NCBI GenBank assembly: GCA_025964685.1
Contig: JAOPYG010000444.1
Coordinates: 1 to 64,000, forward strand
Reading direction: 5' to 3'
DNA from: Actinoallomurus sp.
GTDB lineage: Bacteria; Actinomycetota; Actinomycetes; Streptosporangiales; Streptosporangiaceae
Length of the DNA stretch: 64,000 nucleotides
Each line of letters opens with the position of its first letter. Position 1 is the stretch's first letter. Below, piece by piece: positions 52,380-63,752 of the stretch. The translations under genes were made by a program, and so were the position numbers. The notes beneath the pieces are model-generated. The model did no database searches and had not been told where the DNA came from. It saw only the letters and a list, made by a program, of their open reading frames with translations.

Positions 52380-53360
52380 CTAACCGGATATTTCCGGGCG
52401 ATTCTCCGCAATCCAGGCGTCGATCGTTTCCCACCAGTCATAGAGCCACGGCTCCCGATCCTCCTCCGGGATCTCCTCGAAGGGAACCCTCCACCACCGG
52501 GCCCGCAGCGGCCGCTCCAGGGGGATCCGCCGCCAGATGTCGCGGACGGTCATCATGTCGTCGACCCCGGTGTGGGCGACGAAGACGATGTCGGCGCCCG
52601 GTGCGGCGTCGATGGCGGCGAGCGTTCCGGCCGGGTGCGGCGGTAGGACGTTCGCCATCTTCCGTGCGCGTTCCGCCTCGTCTGGGCGGCCCTGCCGGCG
52701 CAGCCTGCGGATCGCCCGTACGCGGCGGCGCGGCGTGAAGTTCCCGCCCTCTGGGAAGATCAGCATCGCGTCCCGTGGGCCGATTCCGGTGGCCAGCCGG
52801 CCGATCTCGGTGACGATCCGCTCACGTGGCGCGCCGCCGGCGGGCACGAAGGCGTTGGGCAGCCGGTTGAACACCACGTCGAGCGCGGGGTCGAGCTGCA
52901 GGGCCGCCTTCATGACGATGCGCGGCCGGCGCCCGTAGACGTTGAGGAGGAAGTGGACGATCAGGAATGAGTCACCGGGTCCGGCATGCCTGCTCAGCAC
53001 GATCACCGGGCGCTCCGCCGCCGCGTTCAGCGGTTCCTGGATCTCGACGACCAGACCGAGCACCCGTGACGCGACCGCGTAGATCCGGCTGACGAACCAT
53101 CCGCAGAGGGCGTAGTGCCGTTCCCGGCCGGTCGTGCGGCGTCCACCGGTGACCCACAGGACGAGAGAGGCCGCGAGTACGGCGCACTCCATCGCGAGCC
53201 ACGACACCGCGACCGCCGCGACCCGCAGGAAACGGTGGCGTCCACGCGAGAAGACGACGCCGGCGAGGAGGAGCAGCGGCGACGCCGCCACCACCACGAC
53301 AGCGATCGCGATCAGCAGCGGGACAAGGATCAGGCGCCTGAGGAAACGCGGCGGGATCAC
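52380..53360 (-). CDS. PlsC-type 1-acyl-glycerol-3-phosphate acyltransferase family protein
   Basis: PVIVLSRHAGPGDSFLIVHFLLN, MLIFPEGGNFTPRRR. Confidence 0.87.
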   Translation of the reverse strand: MIPPRFLRRLILVPLLIAIAVVVVAASPLLLLAGVVFSRGRHRFLRVAAVAVSWLAMECAVLAASLVLWVTGGRRTTGRERHYALCGWFVSRIYAVASRVLGLVVEIQEPLNAAAERPVIVLSRHAGPGDSFLIVHFLLNVYGRRPRIVMKAALQLDPALDVVFNRLPNAFVPAGGAPRERIVTEIGRLATGIGPRDAMLIFPEGGNFTPRRRVRAIRRLRRQGRPDEAERARKMANVLPPHPAGTLAAIDAAPGADIVFVAHTGVDDMMTVRDIWRRIPLERPLRARWWRVPFEEIPEEDREPWLYDWWETIDAWIAENRPEISG

Positions 53361-53378: not shown

Positions 53379-54203
53379 TCACTCACCCGCGAGGTAAGCG
53401 CTGCTCGCCGCGTAGGCCCGGTCGATGTTGGCCCCGACGCGCGAAGAGTCCCGGTAACGCAGTTGGGACAGGCCCGTACCCTGTCCGGTCGCTCCGGTGG
53501 GGAGGACGTGGACGGTCACGTCGTCGGGCAGCTCCGCCATCTCCTCGGCGAACCGGTGCCGCCGGGCGATCTCGAAGGCGACCAGCCCGACCTGCCAGGG
53601 CCTGGTCGGGGCGGTGAGGGGGACCTCCACGCGGCCGACCTGCAGCACGTAGATCGTCCGTGCGCCCTCACGCAGCGCGCGGCCGATCGGGATGCTGTGC
53701 ACCAGCCCGCCGTCGTAGAAGTGCTCGTCGCCGATGCGGACCGGCGGGAGGATCCCGGGGACCGCGCAGGACGCCAGCACCGCCGGGACGATCGGGCCGC
53801 GGGTGAACCACCGCGCCTCGGCGCGCTCGATGTTGGCGGCCACGCAGTGGAAGGGCACCGCCAGGTCCTCGATCCGGTCGGCGGGGATCAGCGCCTCCAG
53901 CGCCGTGGCCAGCAGGCCCGTGGAGTGCAGATGGGTGCCGGAGCGGAGCAGCGTCGACACGCGGCTCAGGAACGAGCCGGCGAACACCGAACCCGCACCG
54001 TCCCCCTGCCACGCCTGGGTCAGCAGGTCGGCCGCGTCCGCGGGATCGGATGCCACGAAGGCGCCGTTGAACGCGCCCACCGACGTGCCGACGACCAGAT
54101 CGGGCCGGACGCCCGCCTCGGCGAGCGCCCGGAGCATGCCCACTTCGTGAGCGCCCAGCAGACCGCCGCCACCCAGCACGAACGCGGTTTTGGGATGTTC
54201 CAC
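53379..54203 (-). CDS. Patatin-like phospholipase
   Basis: TAFVLGGGGLLGAHEVGMLRALAEAGVRPDLVVGTSVGAFNGAF (GXSXG), YDGGLVHSIPI (DGG). Confidence 0.93.
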   Translation of the reverse strand: MEHPKTAFVLGGGGLLGAHEVGMLRALAEAGVRPDLVVGTSVGAFNGAFVASDPADAADLLTQAWQGDGAGSVFAGSFLSRVSTLLRSGTHLHSTGLLATALEALIPADRIEDLAVPFHCVAANIERAEARWFTRGPIVPAVLASCAVPGILPPVRIGDEHFYDGGLVHSIPIGRALREGARTIYVLQVGRVEVPLTAPTRPWQVGLVAFEIARRHRFAEEMAELPDDVTVHVLPTGATGQGTGLSQLRYRDSSRVGANIDRAYAASSAYLAGE

Positions 54204-54302: not shown

Positions 54303-55130
54303 TCACGGGCGGTCGACGAACTTGCTGCCGATGACGAGGTCGCCGTCGATGTGGACCTGACCGTCGAAGCGGGTGATCGGGGGTGGCGTGGCAGTGCTGG
54401 GAGGGGGCAGGGCGGGCTGTGGGGCCGCGATGATGGCCTGGTGTCCCGCCACGTGCATCCAGGCGGTGATCTGCGACTCCTTCACGCGGAAACTCACCCG
54501 GGTGAACGTCGTGGGATCGAGCAGGCCCGTGTCGCTGCTCAGTGCCGTGGTGAACACGTGCTCCGACGTCATGAACGCCAGGTCGGCGCCGGACGCCCGC
54601 AGCGCCTCGCGCAGCGGCGGGGCGTCCAGCATGCGCGCGGTGTGGATGATGGCGTCTCCGTTGAGTCCTTCGGCGTCGCGGGTCACCGGGCCGACGTGCA
54701 GTGCGGCGCGGAGTCCGATGCGCACGGACTCGGTGGCCCGCCGGTTGTGGCGTCGTAGTTCGGCGGCCAGGACGGCGAGCAGGGGATCGGCGACCGCCCG
54801 TGTCGGCACGTCGGGAGGCACGATCACCAGGACGCCGTCGCCGCGGTCCTCGTGGTAGCAGGCTGCCCAGGACACGCCGGACCTCTCGAACGCGGCGCGC
54901 AGCATCGCGTACAGGCGGTCGCGGACCAGCCGGCGGTCCGCCTCGGTCCGGCAGGGCGCGCTGAAGGCGGCCACGTCGGTGTAGAGGACCGAGCAGTTGA
55001 GCGAGGACCAGGCCGGCGCCTCCTGCGGATGACGCCGGGTGTCCGGGCGCCGTCCGGCCGCGAGTGTCAGGGCAGGGTGCGAGGACACCCCGCGGTGCCG
55101 GTCATCGAGCACTCGGCTCACCTCCGTCAT
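54303..55130 (-). CDS. Class III nucleotidyl cyclase-like protein with C-terminal short motif
   Basis: CSVLYTDVAAFSAPCRTEADRRLVRDRLYAMLRAAF, HEDRGDGVLVIVP, LRAALHVGPVTRDAEGLNGDAIIHTARMLDAP; tail FDGQVHIDGDLVIGSKFV. Confidence 0.82.
   Translation of the reverse strand: MTEVSRVLDDRHRGVSSHPALTLAAGRRPDTRRHPQEAPAWSSLNCSVLYTDVAAFSAPCRTEADRRLVRDRLYAMLRAAFERSGVSWAACYHEDRGDGVLVIVPPDVPTRAVADPLLAVLAAELRRHNRRATESVRIGLRAALHVGPVTRDAEGLNGDAIIHTARMLDAPPLREALRASGADLAFMTSEHVFTTALSSDTGLLDPTTFTRVSFRVKESQITAWMHVAGHQAIIAAPQPALPPPSTATPPPITRFDGQVHIDGDLVIGSKFVDRP
54315..54368 (-). other. Shared 18-aa motif, copy 1 (cyclase-like C-terminus)
   Basis: FDGQVHIDGDLVIGSKFV; 10/18 identical to copy 2. Confidence 0.75.
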
Positions 55131-55157
55131 GTGGTTCGCCGCCTGCCGGCCGCCGCG

Positions 55158-58100
55158 TCACCGTGTCCCCAGTTCGACGTATGCGACGCCCGGCGTGGAG
55201 TCGAGCAGGCGCTGGGCCTTCTCCATGCCCTCCCGGTTTCCGGTGCTCCCGCAGACGGTGATCGCCTGGGCGAAGTACTCCCTGGCCGCGTCGCGCCGGG
55301 AGAGCGCGAGGTGGACCTCGCCGAGGAGGATCAGGCTGAGTCCCCGCCCCCACTGGTCGCCGATGTCGCTCTGGATGCCCAGCGCCTCGCCTGCGGGGCC
55401 GAGGGCACGCTCGTGCTCCCCGGCCTCGATATGGATGCGGGAGATGTTGTCGAGCGTGTCGGCGGCACCGCGCCGGTCGCCGATCCGCTCACGTACGGCG
55501 AGTGCCTGCCGGGCGTAGTCGTGCGCGCGGTCGAGATCGCCCATCCGCCGCATCAGGCGCGCCATGGTGTTGAGACAGTCGCCTTCGCCGTGCCGGTCGC
55601 CGATCTCACGGCGCAGGGCCAGCGCCTGGACGGCATGGTCGAGTGCCCGCGGGTACCGCCGGTGGAACCGGTGGATCCGCGCCAGCAGATCGAGGACCTC
55701 GCCCTGGCCGTGCCGGTCGCCGGTCTCCCGGCGAATGCGCAGTGACTCCGCGGCGTCGGCGAGTGCGCTCTCCTCGTCGCCGAGCCGCCAGCGTGCGTGG
55801 GCGAGCGTGCACAGGCTTTCCGCCTCACCGTGCCGATGGCCGATCCGCCGATGCAGGTCCAGGGCCTGTTCGGCGAGTGCGACCGCACGCTGGTTCCGGC
55901 CCAGCCGGCGGTGGGCGTGCGACAGGGTGTTGAGGGTCTCGGCCTGACCGCGCCGGTCGTCGAGCCCGGTACGGATGCGCAGCGCACGCTCGGCGAAGTC
56001 GAGTGCCTTGTCGTAGCGGGCGAGCAGATAGTGGATCCGGGCGAGGTTGTCCCACGCCGCGCTCTCCGCGCCCCGGTCGCCGATCGCCTGCTGGATCCGG
56101 ATCGCCTTGCGCGCGTGGCGCACCGCCGTCATGTACGCAGCCTGGTAGCGCGAGACGGTGGCGAGCGCGTCGAGGGTCCGGCCCTCCGCGGCCAGGTCAC
56201 CGATGCTGCGTTGGATGCGCAGCGCCGCCTTCAGCCGGCTCGACGCCGTCGCGTAGCGGGCCGACCCGCAGTGCACGAGCCCGATCGCGTGAAGGGTCTC
56301 GGCCTCGCAGGAGGAGTCACCGGCGGCTCGCTGGATGCCGAGCGCCCGGCCCAGGTCACCGAGGGCGTCGTCGTGGTGGCCGAGGTGCCAGCGGACCCGC
56401 CCGATCAGCGTGAGCGACTCGGCCTCGCCCGCCCGGTCCTCGATCTCCCTTTTGACGCGCAACGCGTCCCGTGCGATGCGCAGGGCTTCGGCGTACTCCG
56501 CCTGCCTACGGTTGATGTGCGCCAGGGTGAGCAGGTCATCGCTCTCGCCGTGCCGGTCACCGATCCGCCTGCAGATCGCGAGCGACTCCAGCGCGCACGA
56601 ACGCGCCCGGTCATAGCGTGCCGACCGGGAGTGGACGCGGGCGAGGACGTAGAGGGTGTGGCTGATTCCGCCGAGGTCGCCGATGTCGCGCTGGATGGCC
56701 AGGGCCTCCTCCGCCCGGGCGCGCGCCTTGTCGTGTGAGCCCTGGTGCCACAGGAGCAGCGCCATCATCGCGGTGCTCTCCGCGATCCCGCGGCGATCGC
56801 CGGTCTCGCGGCGGATCCACAGCGACTCCTCCACCCGCTCGGCGGCCTCCCGGTACTCCGCCCTGCGGATGTGGATCTGGGCCATGACGTCCAGGGTCAC
56901 TCCCTGGCCGGAACGGTCGCTGATCTCGCGCTGGTTCCGGAGCGCCCTGGTGGCGTTCCCCATCGCGTTCCGGTGGTCGCCCGTCCGGCACTGGATCCGG
57001 GCGATGGTGCTCTGGCTCTCCCCGACGCCGAACCGGTCGCCGCTCCTGTGGCGGACGGCGAGCGCGGCGCGGGCATGCGCCAGGGCCGCGGCGTACTCAC
57101 CGGCGCTGTGTTCGATCTCGGCGAGGTTGTTCAGCGACTCTCCCAGCCCGTACCGGTCCTTCAGCTGCTCCTGCAGGGCCAGGGCGTGCTCGGCGTCCCG
57201 GCGGGCGTCCGTGTGCCGCCCGAGCCGCCGCTCGATGAGGGCGATGACGTTGAGCGTCGACGCCACGCCGCACTTGTCGCCGATCCGCCGCCGGATCGCC
57301 AGGGCGCGCCGCGCGTGGCCGATCGCCTCGTCGTACTTTCCCGAGTCGTGCTGGATCGTGGCGATCGTCGCCAGTGACTCACCCTCGCGGTGCTGGTCGG
57401 TGATGTCCTGGGAGATGCGCAGGGCGTCGAAGGCACTGCCCAGCGCGGCCGGGTAGTCGCCCAGCTTGCGGAGGATGTGCGCGCGGCTGCAGAGGCTCAT
57501 GGCCAGCCCGGCGAGGTCGCGGATGTCCTCGCGGATCCGCACGGCGTCCGCCGCGTGGCGCAGCGCGTCCGCCGAGCGTCCCATCCGCCGCAGGATGCGG
57601 GACAGGGTGTCCAGTGACTCGCCCTGGCCACGCCGGTCACCGATCCGCTCGCGTACGGCCAGTGCGCGCTCCGCGTAGTGGAGCGCGCGGTCGCAGCGGC
57701 CGAGGCGGCGCAGTGCCCGCGAGACCGTCTCGAGTGCGTCGGCCTCACCGGGCCCGTTGGCGAGCGCGCGGTGGATGCGCAGGGACTCACGGGCGTGGCG
57801 CAGCGCGACGCGATAGCGGGCGCGCCGCCAGTGGACCTGGGCGATCTTCTCCAGCCCTTCCGCGACGCCGTGCCGGTCGGCGCTCGCGATGAAGATCCGC
57901 AGGGCCTTGGTGCCGTACTCCAGCGCCTCGTCATAGCGGCTCCGCGAGCGTTCGACGCGCGACATCGTGTTGAGCGCCCAGCCGGCTCGACGGTGTTCGC
58001 CCAGCGCGGTGAAGGTCTCATACGCGGCCTGGGCGTCACGGCTCGCGTCGGCGTATCTTCCCAGGTCACAGCGCACGACGGCGAGATGGTCGAGCATCAG

Positions 58101-59612
58101 GGCCTCGGACCGGCGGTCGCCGGCCGACCGTGCCGCGGCGAGGCCGAGCTCGTGGATCTCGATGTTGTCGCTGTTGTGCCTGTCGCGCCGCAGGAAGGGG
58201 AACAGGGCGTCGGCCAGTTCCCAGGCGAGGGCCCACTCGCCCATCTCGGCGGCCTGGCGGGTGGCGGCCACCAGACCGGCGCGTTCGGCGTCGAGCCACG
58301 CCAGACACGCCTCGATGCCTCCTGCCGGGCCGATGGCGGCGGCGTCGTTCACCGGCGCGGCGAGCGCGGCCGCGGCGGCGCGCGCGGAGTTCAGGTACCA
58401 GCTCTGCAGCCGCCGGATCGCCGCGCCGCTCTCCCCGTCGTCCTCGATGGCCAGCCGTTCCCTGGCGTACTCACCGAGCAGTTCGTGCAGCCTCAGGCGG
58501 CCAGGAGTGCGCTGTTCGACGAGATGCCGGCGGAGGAGCTGACGGGCGAGGCGTCGCGCCGTGGGGGCGGAGATGGCGAGCAGCGTGGCGACGCAATCCA
58601 CGCTGAAGTCCGGACCCGGTATCAGGCCGAGCATCCGGAAGGCGCGCCGCTGCCGGGCGTCCAGGTTGTCATAGGACACGTCGAAGGCCGAGCGGACCGC
58701 GAGGCTGGGGTCACCGTCGATCTCCAGGGTGTCGAGCCGGGCGCCGGTCAGCTCCTCGACCAGTTCGGCCACCGAGTGGAAGGGACCCGTCGCCAGCCCG
58801 GCGGCCGCGATCCGGATGGCCAGCGGCAGCCGTGCGCACGACTCGGCGAGCGCGGTCGCGGCCCGCGGCTCGGCCTCGCCGCGTTCGGCGCCGATGAGAT
58901 GCCCGGCGAGCTCGCGGGAGTCGTCGAGGGACAGCGGGTGGACGGGTACGGAGATCGCCCCGTAGCGCGCCACCAGCCCTTCCAGGTGAGTACGGCTGGT
59001 GACCACGACGAGGCAGCCCGCGCCGCCGGGCAGCAGCGGGATGATCTGTTCGATGCTCGCGGCGTTGTCGAGCACTACGAGGACCTTTCGATCCGCGAGG
59101 AGTGAGCGGTAGAGCGCGGCTCGCGGCGCCTCGTCGCCCGGGATGTCGACGGTGGCCATGCCGAGTGCCTGTAGTAGCCAGAAGAGCATGCGGCTGGGCG
59201 CGACCGCCCGCCTGGCCGAAGGCCCCTGCAGATCGAGGAAGATCTGGCCGTCGGGGAAGCCGGCCGCCGTCCGGTGCGCCCATTGGACGGCCAGCGAGGT
59301 CTTGCCGACGCCGGCCATGCCGTGGACCTCCACGAGGGCGACCGAGGAGCGGGCCGACCGCAGTGCGGCGTCCATCGCCGACAGTTCCGCGTCCCGGCCC
59401 ACGAACGTGTCCGGCGCCATCGGCAGCTGCCAGATCGGGGGCGTCAGCCGCTGCGCGGCCTGCTGGACCACCTTCACTCCGGCGACGAGGTCGCCCTGGG
59501 CTCGCACCGGTCCGTTGAACCATGTGCCTCCTTGTTCGAGCGCGTTGCCGTCTCCGCGATACCGCGGGTCGTCGTCGTCCCGTCGCATGGCCACTCCCGA
59601 TTCGCGCGCCAC
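55158..59612 (-). CDS. STAND (NB-ARC) NTPase with about 25 TPR-like repeats, NLR-like architecture
   Basis: DTFVGRDAELSAMDAAL, VHGMAGVGKTSLAVQWAH (Walker A), KVLVVLDNA (Walker B); 40-aa repeats (x)IGDRxGExx..LARIxxxxGxYxxAxxxAxxALxIRR; possible alternative start 59588. Confidence 0.93.
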   Translation of the reverse strand: MARESGVAMRRDDDDPRYRGDGNALEQGGTWFNGPVRAQGDLVAGVKVVQQAAQRLTPPIWQLPMAPDTFVGRDAELSAMDAALRSARSSVALVEVHGMAGVGKTSLAVQWAHRTAAGFPDGQIFLDLQGPSARRAVAPSRMLFWLLQALGMATVDIPGDEAPRAALYRSLLADRKVLVVLDNAASIEQIIPLLPGGAGCLVVVTSRTHLEGLVARYGAISVPVHPLSLDDSRELAGHLIGAERGEAEPRAATALAESCARLPLAIRIAAAGLATGPFHSVAELVEELTGARLDTLEIDGDPSLAVRSAFDVSYDNLDARQRRAFRMLGLIPGPDFSVDCVATLLAISAPTARRLARQLLRRHLVEQRTPGRLRLHELLGEYARERLAIEDDGESGAAIRRLQSWYLNSARAAAAALAAPVNDAAAIGPAGGIEACLAWLDAERAGLVAATRQAAEMGEWALAWELADALFPFLRRDRHNSDNIEIHELGLAAARSAGDRRSEALMLDHLAVVRCDLGRYADASRDAQAAYETFTALGEHRRAGWALNTMSRVERSRSRYDEALEYGTKALRIFIASADRHGVAEGLEKIAQVHWRRARYRVALRHARESLRIHRALANGPGEADALETVSRALRRLGRCDRALHYAERALAVRERIGDRRGQGESLDTLSRILRRMGRSADALRHAADAVRIREDIRDLAGLAMSLCSRAHILRKLGDYPAALGSAFDALRISQDITDQHREGESLATIATIQHDSGKYDEAIGHARRALAIRRRIGDKCGVASTLNVIALIERRLGRHTDARRDAEHALALQEQLKDRYGLGESLNNLAEIEHSAGEYAAALAHARAALAVRHRSGDRFGVGESQSTIARIQCRTGDHRNAMGNATRALRNQREISDRSGQGVTLDVMAQIHIRRAEYREAAERVEESLWIRRETGDRRGIAESTAMMALLLWHQGSHDKARARAEEALAIQRDIGDLGGISHTLYVLARVHSRSARYDRARSCALESLAICRRIGDRHGESDDLLTLAHINRRQAEYAEALRIARDALRVKREIEDRAGEAESLTLIGRVRWHLGHHDDALGDLGRALGIQRAAGDSSCEAETLHAIGLVHCGSARYATASSRLKAALRIQRSIGDLAAEGRTLDALATVSRYQAAYMTAVRHARKAIRIQQAIGDRGAESAAWDNLARIHYLLARYDKALDFAERALRIRTGLDDRRGQAETLNTLSHAHRRLGRNQRAVALAEQALDLHRRIGHRHGEAESLCTLAHARWRLGDEESALADAAESLRIRRETGDRHGQGEVLDLLARIHRFHRRYPRALDHAVQALALRREIGDRHGEGDCLNTMARLMRRMGDLDRAHDYARQALAVRERIGDRRGAADTLDNISRIHIEAGEHERALGPAGEALGIQSDIGDQWGRGLSLILLGEVHLALSRRDAAREYFAQAITVCGSTGNREGMEKAQRLLDSTPGVAYVELGTR
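55195..58130 (-). repeat. About 25 tandem coding repeats of about 120 bp (TPR/kinesin-light-chain-like)
   Basis: Counted 25 GDR(x)G-type repeat heads in the translation. Confidence 0.88.
59466..59519 (-). other. Shared 18-aa motif, copy 2 (STAND protein N-terminus)
   Basis: FNGPVRAQGDLVAGVKVV, upstream of NB-ARC. Confidence 0.75.
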
Positions 59613-59811
59613 TCCTGCGACCAGAACAGGCCAGACTCCGGCGCTGTGTCACCCGCCACGTAACGAAGCCGCGTGATGCGATGGACTTGGTTACGCCTCG
59701 GAGCGGGCCGCCCCGCGCCGGTGACGAGCTGGAACGCCCACCCCCGTGTTCCGGTCCGATACATGCAGGAGAACGCCGGATGTCTCGCCGAACAAGCGGG
59801 TCGCTCATTAC

Positions 59812-59828
59812 CCGTACAAAGCCGTACA
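59812..59828 (+). promoter_or_regulatory. Direct repeats CCGTACA spaced by one helical turn
   Basis: CCGTACA-AAG-CCGTACA in the intergenic region between divergent STAND genes. Confidence 0.35.
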
Positions 59829-59861
59829 GATCAGAACTCATGCCGCGACCTGTCCGTCACC

Positions 59862-62800
59862 ATGGGTGACGGTGGTGAGGCGCGGTCGGGGGCCGGCCCG
59901 GCGGATCCGGCGCGGATCGTCACGCGACGTGACTTCGCGGACGAGCTGACACGATTACGCGAACTGGCCGGGCTGTCCGTACGGGACGTCGCCAAGGCCG
60001 CGGGCCTGCCCGACAGCACGATGGGTGACTACTTCGCCGGCCGGCATCTGCCGTCGCTGAAGGCCGCCGGGCTGCCCGGCATCCTGCGCGCCTGCGGAGT
60101 GACCGATCCGGAGTCCGTCGCGCGGTGGCTGGAGGCGCTTCGCCGCGTACGGCGCAGTCCGGGCCGGCGGTCGGCCGAGACCCGCGCGCCGTACCTGGGG
60201 CTGGCGAGCTTCCAACCGGAGGACGCCGAATGGTTCTTCGGCCGGGAGACGCTGACCGCGGCCCTGGTCGCCCGCGTGCTCGAACGCCGGGGCCAGGGCA
60301 TCCTCGCCGTCACCGGTCCGTCGGGCTCGGGTAAGTCGTCTCTGTTGCGGGCGGGCCTGATCCCCGCGCTGCCCTGGCCGTCACTGCTCCTGAGCCCGGG
60401 CACGGACCCCATCGGCGCGCTCGCGTCCACGCTCGCGACCCTGGCCGGAGAGCCGGATGACGTGGTCGACGGGGTGCGCGGGGACCCGTCACGCGCCGCG
60501 GGGCTCGCGGCGCGGGCCGCGTCGGCCGGGGACTCCGGCGAGGCCGCGGACCGGCGGCTCGTCATCGTCGTGGACCAGTTCGAGGAGGTGTTCACCGGCG
60601 GCTGCACGGACGCCGAGCGCACCGCGTTCCTCTCCGCGCTCCAGGCGATCGCGCGGTCGGCCGCCATCGTCGTGATCGGGCTGCGCGCCGACTTCTACGC
60701 ACGCGCGCTGCGCCACCGCGAGCTGGCCCGGATCCTCCAGACCTCGCAGCTGGTCGTGGGGCCGATGAGTGAGACGGAGCTGCGCACGGCGATCGTGACG
60801 CCGGCGCAGAAGGCAGGGCTGACACTGGAGCCCGGCCTCGTCGAGCTCCTGCTCCAGGACCTTCGCGCGTCCTCGCGCGACCGGGACGCCGAAGAGGCGC
60901 ACGACGCCGGCGCGCTCCCGCTGCTGTCCCACGCCCTGTTGGCGACCTGGTTACGCCGCCACCGGCGCCGGCTCACCATCGCCGACTACCGGGAGAGCGG
61001 CGGCATCGGGGGAGCGGTGGCCCGCACCGCCGAGTCGGCGTACGCCACGCTGAGCCCCGCGCAGAAGCGGATCGCCCGGCAGATCTTCCTGCGGCTGGTG
61101 CACGTCGCCGACGACACCGGCGACACGCGGCGCCGGGTGACGCTCGGGGAGTTGCCGCCCGGCGACGAGGTGATCGAAGTCCTCGACCATCTCATCGACC
61201 AGCGGCTCATCACCGTGGCGACGGATGAGTTCGCTCTCATCCACGAGGCGCTGCTGGCCGCCTGGCCGCGGCTGCGCGCCTGGCTCGACGCGGACCGGGT
61301 CGGCCTGCGCACCCATCGCCGGCTGAGCTTCGCCGCGGAGGTGTGGCGCGACTCCGGGCAGGATCCCAGCACCCTCCTGCGGACGGTCCGCCTCGCCGAG
61401 GCGGCCGAATGGGCCGAGGACACGCGCCATGCCGCAGACATGAACGCCCTCGAACGCGACTTCCTCGCCGCCGGCGTCGAGCACGAACGCGCGGAGCAGC
61501 GGTCGGCGCGCCGCCGGAGCCGCCGCCGCCAGCAGCTGCTGGCCGCACTGTTATCCCTGTCCCTGGTGGCGAGCGCGCTGGCGGTCATCGCCTTTCGCCA
61601 GCGGGGACGCGCCGACGAACAGCGGGACATCGCGATCTCCCGCCGGGTCGCCGTCGAGGCGGAAAAACTGCGCGTGAAGGACGTCGACCTCGCCGGACAG
61701 TTGTCCCTGGCCGCCTACCAGGTGGCGCCGACCCAGGAGGCCAGATCCAGCCTGCTGGAGTCCTACGCCGGCCCCGCGGTGACGCGGGTGCTCGGCTCGT
61801 CCGGCATCCTGCAGAGCGTCGCGTTCACGCGCGACGGCCGGCGGATGGCGACCGGCGGGACCGACCGGACCGTACGCCTGTGGAACATGCGCGATCGGAG
61901 CCGCCCCATCGCGATCGGGGCTCCGCTGCGCGGACACCGCGACACGGTCTTCACGGTGGCGTTCAGCCCCGACGGGCGGCTGCTGCTCAGCGGCGGTGGT
62001 GGCGGTGCCGTACACCTCTGGCGGCTCGACGGCGACACCGTGAGGGACGGGGGTTCGCTCCCAGGGCCGCGCGGCACCGTGTACTCCGTGGCCTTCAGCC
62101 CGGACGGCCGCACCGTCGCCGCGGGCAGCGCCGATGAGCACCTCTACCTGTGGGACCTGAGCGACGCGGCCCGGCCCGTGCCGCTCGCGCGACCACTGGC
62201 GGGGCCCGGCGGTGCCGTGCAGTCGGTCGCCTTCAGCCCGGACGGGCGCACGCTGGCGGCGGGTTCGGCGGAGGGCGGGGTGCGGCTGTGGGACCTCGGC
62301 GACCGTCCGCGGCCCCTCGGGGCTGCGCTGACCGCGTCGGCGAAGTCGATCTTCGCGGTGACGTTCAGCCCGGACGGGCGCACTCTCGCGGCGGGCGGCG
62401 CCGATGACACCGTACGGCTGTGGAATGTGACCGATCGCGCCGCGCCGGTCAGCCGCGGCGCCCCCATGGGCGGCCCCAAGGGGTGGATCAACTCCCTCGC
62501 CTTCGCCCCCGGCGGCCGCACCCTGGCGGCGGCCAGCTCGGACGGGCAGGTCTGGATCTGGGACGCCGTCACGCACGCGAGAACCGCCTCGCTGCCCCAC
62601 CCGGGAGCGGTGACCGGCGTCGTCTTCCTCGGCGCCGGCTCGCTGGCCACCAGTGCCTCCGACGGTGCCACCCGGATCTGGGACCTGCCCGGTCCGGTCG
62701 TCGAGGCGCCCGCCGGCGATGTCTTCTCCACGACCGTCGGCTCACGCGGTCACGTCCTGGCCACCGCCTCGTCCGGCGGCACCGCTCAGCTCTGGAGTCT

Positions 62801-63752
62801 CGCCGACCCCCGTCACCCCGCACCACTTGGACCGCCGATCCGCGATGCCGTACGCGTCGGCCGCGCCTCGGGGGCCAGCGCGCTCAGCCCGGACGCCAGG
62901 ACCCTGGTCGTCGGTGGCGTCGACGGCGGCTCGCAGCTGTGGAACGTCGCGGACCCGGCGAGGCCCACGCCGTTGCGGACCCGGCTGACCGGTCCGGCGG
63001 GGACCATCCAGGGACTCGCGTTCCGCCCGGACGGCCGCCTGGTGGCCGCCTCCAGCAACGACAAGAAGGTATGGCTCTGGGACATCGGTGACCCGGGTCA
63101 TCCGGTCCGCGTCTCGCCGCCGCTGACCGGCCCGGCGAACTACGCGTACGCGCCGGCGTTCAGCCCGGACGGCCGGACCCTCGCGGTCGGCAGCGCCGAC
63201 TCGCGCGTCTACCTCTGGGACGTCACCGACCCACACCGGCCGACGCCCCTGGGACCTCCGCTCACCGGCCATTCCCGGTACGTGTTCAGCGTCGCGTTCA
63301 GCCCTGACGGGAGGACGATGGCCAGCGGGGGCGCGGACAACAAGGTCGTGCTGTGGGACGTCACCGACCGGCGTCACCCGCGCCGGTCACCCGTGCCGCT
63401 GACCGGCCCCGACAACTACGTATGGTCCGTCGTCTTCGACGGCACCGGCCGGCTCCTGGCGGCCACCGCGGGAGACGGGAGCGCCTGGCTGTGGGACGTG
63501 GCCGATCCGCGTCATCCGCGTGGCCTCGCCACGATCAGCGGATCGCCCGACGCCCTCTACACCGACGTGTTCGACACCGGCCGCTCCATCCTCGTCACCG
63601 CCGGTGTCGGCAGGACGGTGCGCCTGTGGAACACCGACGCGGGACAGGTCGCCGCGCGTCTCTGTTCCGTCGCCGGGACGCCCATCACCAGGGCCGAATG
63701 GGACCACTACCTTCCCGACCGGCCGTACCGCCCGCCCTGCCGGGCGCGGTGA
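59862..63752 (+). CDS. HTH-nSTAND1 NTPase-TM-WD40 protein
   Basis: HTH LRELAGLSVRDVAKAAGLPDSTMGDYFAGRHLP; GRETLTAALVARVL, VTGPSGSGKSSLLRAGLIPAL (Walker A), LVIVVDQFEEVF; TM LLAALLSLSLVASALAVIAF; 14 WD40 repeats. Confidence 0.93.
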   Translation: MGDGGEARSGAGPADPARIVTRRDFADELTRLRELAGLSVRDVAKAAGLPDSTMGDYFAGRHLPSLKAAGLPGILRACGVTDPESVARWLEALRRVRRSPGRRSAETRAPYLGLASFQPEDAEWFFGRETLTAALVARVLERRGQGILAVTGPSGSGKSSLLRAGLIPALPWPSLLLSPGTDPIGALASTLATLAGEPDDVVDGVRGDPSRAAGLAARAASAGDSGEAADRRLVIVVDQFEEVFTGGCTDAERTAFLSALQAIARSAAIVVIGLRADFYARALRHRELARILQTSQLVVGPMSETELRTAIVTPAQKAGLTLEPGLVELLLQDLRASSRDRDAEEAHDAGALPLLSHALLATWLRRHRRRLTIADYRESGGIGGAVARTAESAYATLSPAQKRIARQIFLRLVHVADDTGDTRRRVTLGELPPGDEVIEVLDHLIDQRLITVATDEFALIHEALLAAWPRLRAWLDADRVGLRTHRRLSFAAEVWRDSGQDPSTLLRTVRLAEAAEWAEDTRHAADMNALERDFLAAGVEHERAEQRSARRRSRRRQQLLAALLSLSLVASALAVIAFRQRGRADEQRDIAISRRVAVEAEKLRVKDVDLAGQLSLAAYQVAPTQEARSSLLESYAGPAVTRVLGSSGILQSVAFTRDGRRMATGGTDRTVRLWNMRDRSRPIAIGAPLRGHRDTVFTVAFSPDGRLLLSGGGGGAVHLWRLDGDTVRDGGSLPGPRGTVYSVAFSPDGRTVAAGSADEHLYLWDLSDAARPVPLARPLAGPGGAVQSVAFSPDGRTLAAGSAEGGVRLWDLGDRPRPLGAALTASAKSIFAVTFSPDGRTLAAGGADDTVRLWNVTDRAAPVSRGAPMGGPKGWINSLAFAPGGRTLAAASSDGQVWIWDAVTHARTASLPHPGAVTGVVFLGAGSLATSASDGATRIWDLPGPVVEAPAGDVFSTTVGSRGHVLATASSGGTAQLWSLADPRHPAPLGPPIRDAVRVGRASGASALSPDARTLVVGGVDGGSQLWNVADPARPTPLRTRLTGPAGTIQGLAFRPDGRLVAASSNDKKVWLWDIGDPGHPVRVSPPLTGPANYAYAPAFSPDGRTLAVGSADSRVYLWDVTDPHRPTPLGPPLTGHSRYVFSVAFSPDGRTMASGGADNKVVLWDVTDRRHPRRSPVPLTGPDNYVWSVVFDGTGRLLAATAGDGSAWLWDVADPRHPRGLATISGSPDALYTDVFDTGRSILVTAGVGRTVRLWNTDAGQVAARLCSVAGTPITRAEWDHYLPDRPYRPPCRAR
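61780..63660 (+). repeat. 14 tandem WD40 repeats
   Basis: Repeated AFSPDGRTLAxGxADxxVxLWDV units. Confidence 0.88.

Follow-up and report, generated by a model that had tools for sequence, protein, structure and literature searches.

The closest described systems to the locus reported here are the BASS motifs, the EAD principle and the fungal HET-S/NWD2 pair. BASS motifs are reported together with Bell effectors and less often with CHAT and TIR effectors (PMC7889193). In systems following the EAD principle and in bDLD systems, an effector and an NTPase are linked through matching homotypic adaptors (Kaur et al., 2020, 2021; PMC7159879, PMC8195603). The present locus lies in a window of 64,000 nucleotides, the whole stretch of DNA analyzed, from the 7.6 Mb draft genome of an Actinoallomurus species. 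It consists of a STAND receptor gene and a cyclase-like effector gene, both on the minus strand and separated by 27 bp, for which the original prediction had proposed a common terminal motif. The features of the locus are as follows:

52380-53360, minus strand: acyltransferase gene, downstream of the effector
53379-54203, minus strand: patatin-like gene, just downstream of the effector
54303..55130, minus strand: class III cyclase-like effector, 275 aa, intact, assigned by family profile, AlphaFold2 (AF2) model and Foldseek
54315..54368, minus strand: effector-side homotypic motif FDGQVHIDGDLVIGSKFV, an 18-mer at the effector C-terminus
54369..54446, minus strand: Pro/Ala-rich variable linker, residues 229-254, of low AF2 model confidence
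54447..55001, minus strand: cyclase-like domain of the effector, residues 44-228, assigned by family profile, AF2 and Foldseek
55158..59612, minus strand: STAND (NLR-like) receptor, intact ORF with N-terminal motif, NB-ARC and long TPR array
58668..59348, minus strand: NB-ARC domain of the receptor, Walker A GMAGVGKT at about 59298-59321
59466..59519, minus strand: receptor-side homotypic motif FNGPVRAQGDLVAGVKVV, an 18-mer at the receptor N-terminus
59673..63752, plus strand: nSTAND1-WD40 protein, HTH-like at its N-terminus, encoded divergently to the pair

The receptor, the effector and the neighboring genes

The receptor has the makeup of a STAND/NLR protein, combining an NB-ARC domain that contains a Walker A motif with C-terminal superstructure repeats. 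Profile searches gave NB-ARC at E 3.3e-8 and TPR_12 at E 1.2e-107, the latter covering a very long TPR array. Receptor orthologues share 82% and 73% identity, and conservation with them indicates that translation probably starts at an ATG whose first base is 59588, eight codons past the listed GTG; in that case the motif would occupy approximately residues 24-41.

The nature of the effector is visible only through its family profile and a structure model, since the Pfam, NCBIfam and PADLOC models gave no family match; a single-sequence search of the PDB returned a chance match only. A profile built from 82 effector relatives detects class III cyclases of known structure (3mr7, E 1.9e-8), and the AlphaFold2 model (pLDDT 86) finds guanylyl and adenylyl cyclases as its best Foldseek matches (3et6, 4wp8, 5d0g; E about 1e-8 to 1e-7), in agreement with the assignment made from the letters. 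As judged from profile and model, the effector is of class III nucleotidyl-cyclase fold, and it is presumed to be catalytic. The tail that follows the cyclase domain (residues 229-275) is modeled with low confidence and appears flexible.

The metal-binding aspartates D52 and D98 and the catalytic arginine R166 are retained and near-invariant in the family, being kept in essentially all 79 sequences of two groups. The position of the catalytic asparagine is occupied by I162 in the window effector; this asparagine is present in 22 of the 82 relatives, with Ile, Val or Ser in most. The base-specifying positions are E94 and G155, a combination that equals that of the engineered guanylyl-type EGY variant of Ma1120 (5d0g) and on account of which GTP is a possible substrate. 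The replaced asparagine also bears on a different reading, according to which the cyclase-like domain has lost catalysis and is recruited by the receptor as a nucleotide-binding scaffold, a decoy or a structural clamp; inactive cyclase-like effector domains have been proposed in related conflict systems (PMC7159879). Conservation of D52, D98 and R166 would be unexpected for a dead enzyme, however, and the asparagine is kept in some of the pairs, so that we consider the loss of catalysis rather unlikely.

The nSTAND1-WD40 gene, which the original prediction did not mention, adjoins the pair in four orthologous loci (L059, L060, L138 and L140), and a search for a copy of the motif in its protein found none. 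The patatin-like and acyltransferase genes were considered as members of the cassette, for example as a cyclic-nucleotide-activated lipase, and were rejected because they are absent from the orthologous loci. None of the genes conserved next to the pair in these loci is a cyclic-nucleotide target. No Pycsar-like adjacent effector is conserved there, and the PADLOC models gave no match.

A motif shared by the two ends of the pair

The motif of the receptor, FNGPVRAQGDLVAGVKVV, and that of the effector, FDGQVHIDGDLVIGSKFV, are identical in 10 of 18 residues, as the original prediction had counted, and in 36 of 54 bases, with the same codon used for seven of the ten common residues. Ungapped alignment of the effector tail with the receptor N-terminus gives a BLOSUM62 score of 49, compared to a mean of 23.8 and a maximum of 43 in 500 shuffles. 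With all ORFs of the locus as possible targets, the shuffled maximum rises to 53 and the observed 49 is not significant, so the window pair by itself is only suggestive. Its score and the extent of codon and base identity would also suit a similarity that arose by chance or by local duplication of a short segment and that has no function. Because the whole-locus search was not significant for the window pair, leave-out and cross-locus tests were applied.

The motif is present at both ends in the orthologous pairs, while the flanking sequence varies: FHGPVRTQGDFIAGVKVV in the receptor and FHDQVNVDGDFVIGTKFV in the effector of L059, FHGPVRAAGDIVAGDKVI and FHEEVHVEGDLVLGSKVI in L060, FHGPVNVGGNIVIGGSAA and FHGQVHVSGDLVVGTKAA in L138, and FRGPVHVLGDIVAGGKVV and FHETVNIAGDLILGSKHA in L140. 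The consensus reads F-x-G-x-V-x-V-x-G-D-x-V-x-G-x-K. Among motif-bearing cyclases the motif ends at most two residues from the C-terminus in 23 of 25. An HMM built from effector tails only was run on the six-frame translations of the fetched loci (13,554 ORFs, 26 of them NB-ARC ORFs) and yielded 14 non-cyclase matches of at least 10 bits; 12 of these are NB-ARC proteins that carry the motif just N-terminal of NB-ARC (Fisher 1e-32), an enrichment that the original prediction had suggested looking for. As the loci of this search had been chosen by the presence of a cyclase, searching whole genomes with a leave-out model is the stricter test. This model contained both sides of the motif, and neither the window nor its two closest orthologous loci, L059 and L060, contributed to it. 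Across the three whole genomes searched, its top six matches are the three receptors and the three effectors (E 5e-8 to 8e-4), followed by a match at 0.015; in the genome of the window both motifs are found at E 1.7e-4 and 6.9e-4, and the next match is at 0.36.

Among the 395 sampled genomes of the class, the window motif is nearly restricted to the Actinomadura-type lineages. Across 40 Actinomadura-type genomes, all twenty matches below 1e-4 are cyclase C-termini or NB-ARC N-termini. A motif-bearing cyclase occurs in ten of these genomes, and all ten also have a motif-bearing NB-ARC protein, some of these partners being weak matches (E up to 0.12) that were identified as NB-ARC proteins. About half of the ten genomes had supplied rows of the model; G259, G267, G282, G309 and G296 are among those that had not. 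The partners need not be neighbors. For the motif-bearing NB-ARC proteins without a nearby cyclase (L211-L215), the motif is found on no neighboring gene, and the matching cyclases sit elsewhere in the genome, on another contig in G259, G282 and G303. In the single-contig genome G355 only two matches are significant: a cyclase tail, located at 7.10 Mb, and, 3.7 Mb away at 3.40 Mb, a single NB-ARC ORF out of the roughly ten that this genome contains. When partners were swapped among 16 pairs of the NB-ARC group, own pairs scored 49.0 vs. 44.8 for swapped pairs (p about 0.015), and only one of the 16 effectors scored best with its own receptor, a modest result that is explained by all these pairs sharing one motif family.

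Conservation in orthologous pairs and detection by the leave-out model confirm, at the level of sequence comparison, that the motif shared by the complementary ends of receptor and effector is real and dedicated. These two lines of evidence, together with the co-occurrence of unlinked partners and the matching of own pairs across different motif types described below, contradict a chance or duplicated similarity without function, which we regard as very improbable. The lack of conservation or of co-variation between the copies had been named in the original prediction as arguing against the pair; neither was encountered, the latter in both swap tests.

Other motifs in the wider cyclase family

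The cyclase family was found in 84 of the 395 sampled genomes. Many relatives carry a quite different Gly-rich C-terminal motif, and the gene directly downstream then begins with the same motif, as in the pairs L087 (SVTGGDMTFGDHHGDK with TVTGGDITHGDHHGDK), L085 (VTVNGDRNQNVFGNQISG with VTINGDGNQNVFGNEIGG), L243 (GGGTVHGTQNNISGNRISG with GGGTVRGDQNNIAGNQISG) and L254 (YGDQIGGPSHRADGHGVVNAPGRDQ with GGDDIAGASHRATDGGTVNAPGRDQ). Counted by eye, there are at least ten other types of C-terminal motif. For 41 cyclase/neighbor pairs of the wider family, which were chosen by gene position only and whose neighbors are STAND-like where checked, the mean similarity is 58.3 for own pairs vs. 28.0 when partners are exchanged, a difference attained in 0 of 50,000 permutations. 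In 23 of these pairs the cyclase scores best with its own receptor, and in 33 this receptor is among the top three; the better-scoring non-own receptors are mostly of the same motif type, and about five or six pairs show no convincing match. The receptors of the wider family contain P-loops, which are often degenerate, and some give weak nSTAND3 matches. Such cyclase/receptor pairs with other motifs had no place in the original prediction.

One of them, L080, is a second cyclase/STAND-like pair in the genome of the window (at about 61.6-64.3 kb on contig C380), and its shared motif, GNVSVAGDGAQNAFGNQVGGDFRQ with GSTEIPGDNAQNAVANQVSGDLIQ, is unrelated to that of the window. The model of its receptor shows an NTPase domain, an alpha-solenoid and a low-confidence N-terminus in which the motif lies. 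Among the better structural matches of this model are SAMD9, the STAND protein 6mfv, AVAST5 and Avs4, with low whole-length TM-scores. Moreover, in L044, L050, L052 and L161 a single ORF encodes a fusion of the cyclase domain with an NB-ARC or NACHT-like STAND domain, which supports the cyclase as an output of a STAND switch.

The family includes further arrangements. In L248, L251, L257 and L096 the cyclase ends in a conserved NTGPQAHVHYNYGTVTVxG tail and no receptor-sized gene adjoins downstream. The relatives in L070, L073, L074, L079, L092, L093 and L229 have a conserved G-G-x-x-L-V-A-L-P-G-G tail, and no STAND neighbor was noticed for cyclases of this kind; L070, L073 and L074 each have another cyclase at a distance of about 3 kb. 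The L164 ORF (1212 aa) has three cyclase-like domains, the first two without catalytic residues. As judged by eye, the cyclase domain is joined to an EAD-like helical tail in L039, L062, L066 and L171, to a TIR/SEFIR-like domain in L058, and to CRP-like cyclic-nucleotide-binding domains in L042 and L101.

Proposed mechanism and comparison with known systems

The two genes probably form a receptor/effector signaling pair of the homotypic-motif kind, that is, a BASS-type signalosome whose cyclase-like output is switched by induced proximity. In such a pair, the TPR array of the NB-ARC protein would sense a trigger, and nucleotide-dependent oligomerization of the receptor, as assumed from STAND proteins in general, would gather its N-terminal motifs. 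The clustered receptor motif would then recruit the flexible effector tail bearing the same motif by homotypic assembly, a pairing to which the sequence comparisons point and which may take the form of an amyloid beta-arch. The working form of class III cyclases is a dimer whose interface holds the active site, and for this reason induced proximity is proposed as the switch that turns the cyclase domain on, or that makes a nucleotide-binding scaffold of it. The likely product would be a cyclic nucleotide or a similar molecule acting as alarm or death signal, and the outcome may be an immune one. In this scheme the motif would serve as private wiring, with many cyclase/STAND-like pairs using different motifs, each confined to its pair or motif family.

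Amyloid assembly is the interpretation that we favor, since the motifs match those of BASS in layout, length and diversity (PMC7889193, PMC12261475). Homotypic pairing could also be real and yet proceed through a small ordered beta element, such as a hairpin, a beta-solenoid or strand addition, in the manner of EAD or death-fold adaptors. The motifs abound in Gly-Asp and short strands and are not Q/N-rich, STAND proteins also signal via ordered filaments (that of AVAST5 is one of the structures matched by the second type of receptor), and effectors and NTPases of related systems are known to follow the EAD principle (PMC8195603). EADs are mostly described as folded and alpha-helical, however, whereas the shared region here comprises about 18-30 residues and is flexible in the models, as in BASS and HET-s, and the diversity and layout of the motifs fit BASS (PMC7889193); we therefore hold an ordered, non-amyloid pairing to be unlikely.

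More tentatively, and with somewhat less than even confidence, a large actinomycete family of cyclase-like proteins may be linked to STAND-like receptors by many private amyloid-forming motifs, templating of which triggers the synthesis of a nucleotide messenger. If so, the output of an amyloid signalosome would be an enzyme that amplifies, and not a pore. Short homotypic motifs in bacteria would then gate an enzyme that possibly amplifies the signal, and not only membrane-killing or NAD-cleaving effectors. An effector family with so many matched pairs of motifs, in which the same cyclase domain is combined with interchangeable keys, offers a natural set for measuring motif specificity and cross-talk. 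Furthermore, a role is suggested for a widespread cyclase-like family of which curated libraries miss the window member.

The papers searched, which cover the study of Dyrka et al. (2020) through later descriptions of it, did not mention any cyclase effector that a short motif links to an NLR. Strings of the GDxVxGxK type were not found in these papers either. The present locus shares with BASS the two-gene layout, the diverse motif families and the occurrence in filamentous Actinomycetes (Dyrka et al., 2020, via PMC7889193, PMC8086366 and PMC12261475). A short motif lies at the NLR N-terminus and at the C-terminus of the neighboring effector, and it is shared and conserved within pairs beyond chance. 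The effector differs, being class III cyclase-like and not one of the Bell, TIR or CHAT effectors named for such motifs in the papers searched. With the EAD and bDLD systems the locus has in common matching homotypic adaptors and an effector type, as cNMP cyclases are among their effectors (PMC7159879, PMC8195603), but the adaptors there are folded and mostly alpha-helical, while here a short flexible motif of low model confidence takes their place. The fungal HET-S/NWD2 pair likewise has its motif at the receptor N-terminus and the effector C-terminus and is encoded by adjacent genes; the effector here is enzyme-like and not a pore-forming HeLo protein. Finally, the effector resembles class III cyclases, including those of bacterial cyclase-NB-ARC fusions, in fold, metal-binding Asp pair and catalytic Arg, and it differs from them in lacking the catalytic Asn, in carrying E94/G155 as in EGY Ma1120, and in being encoded by a separate gene that is linked to its receptor by the motif.
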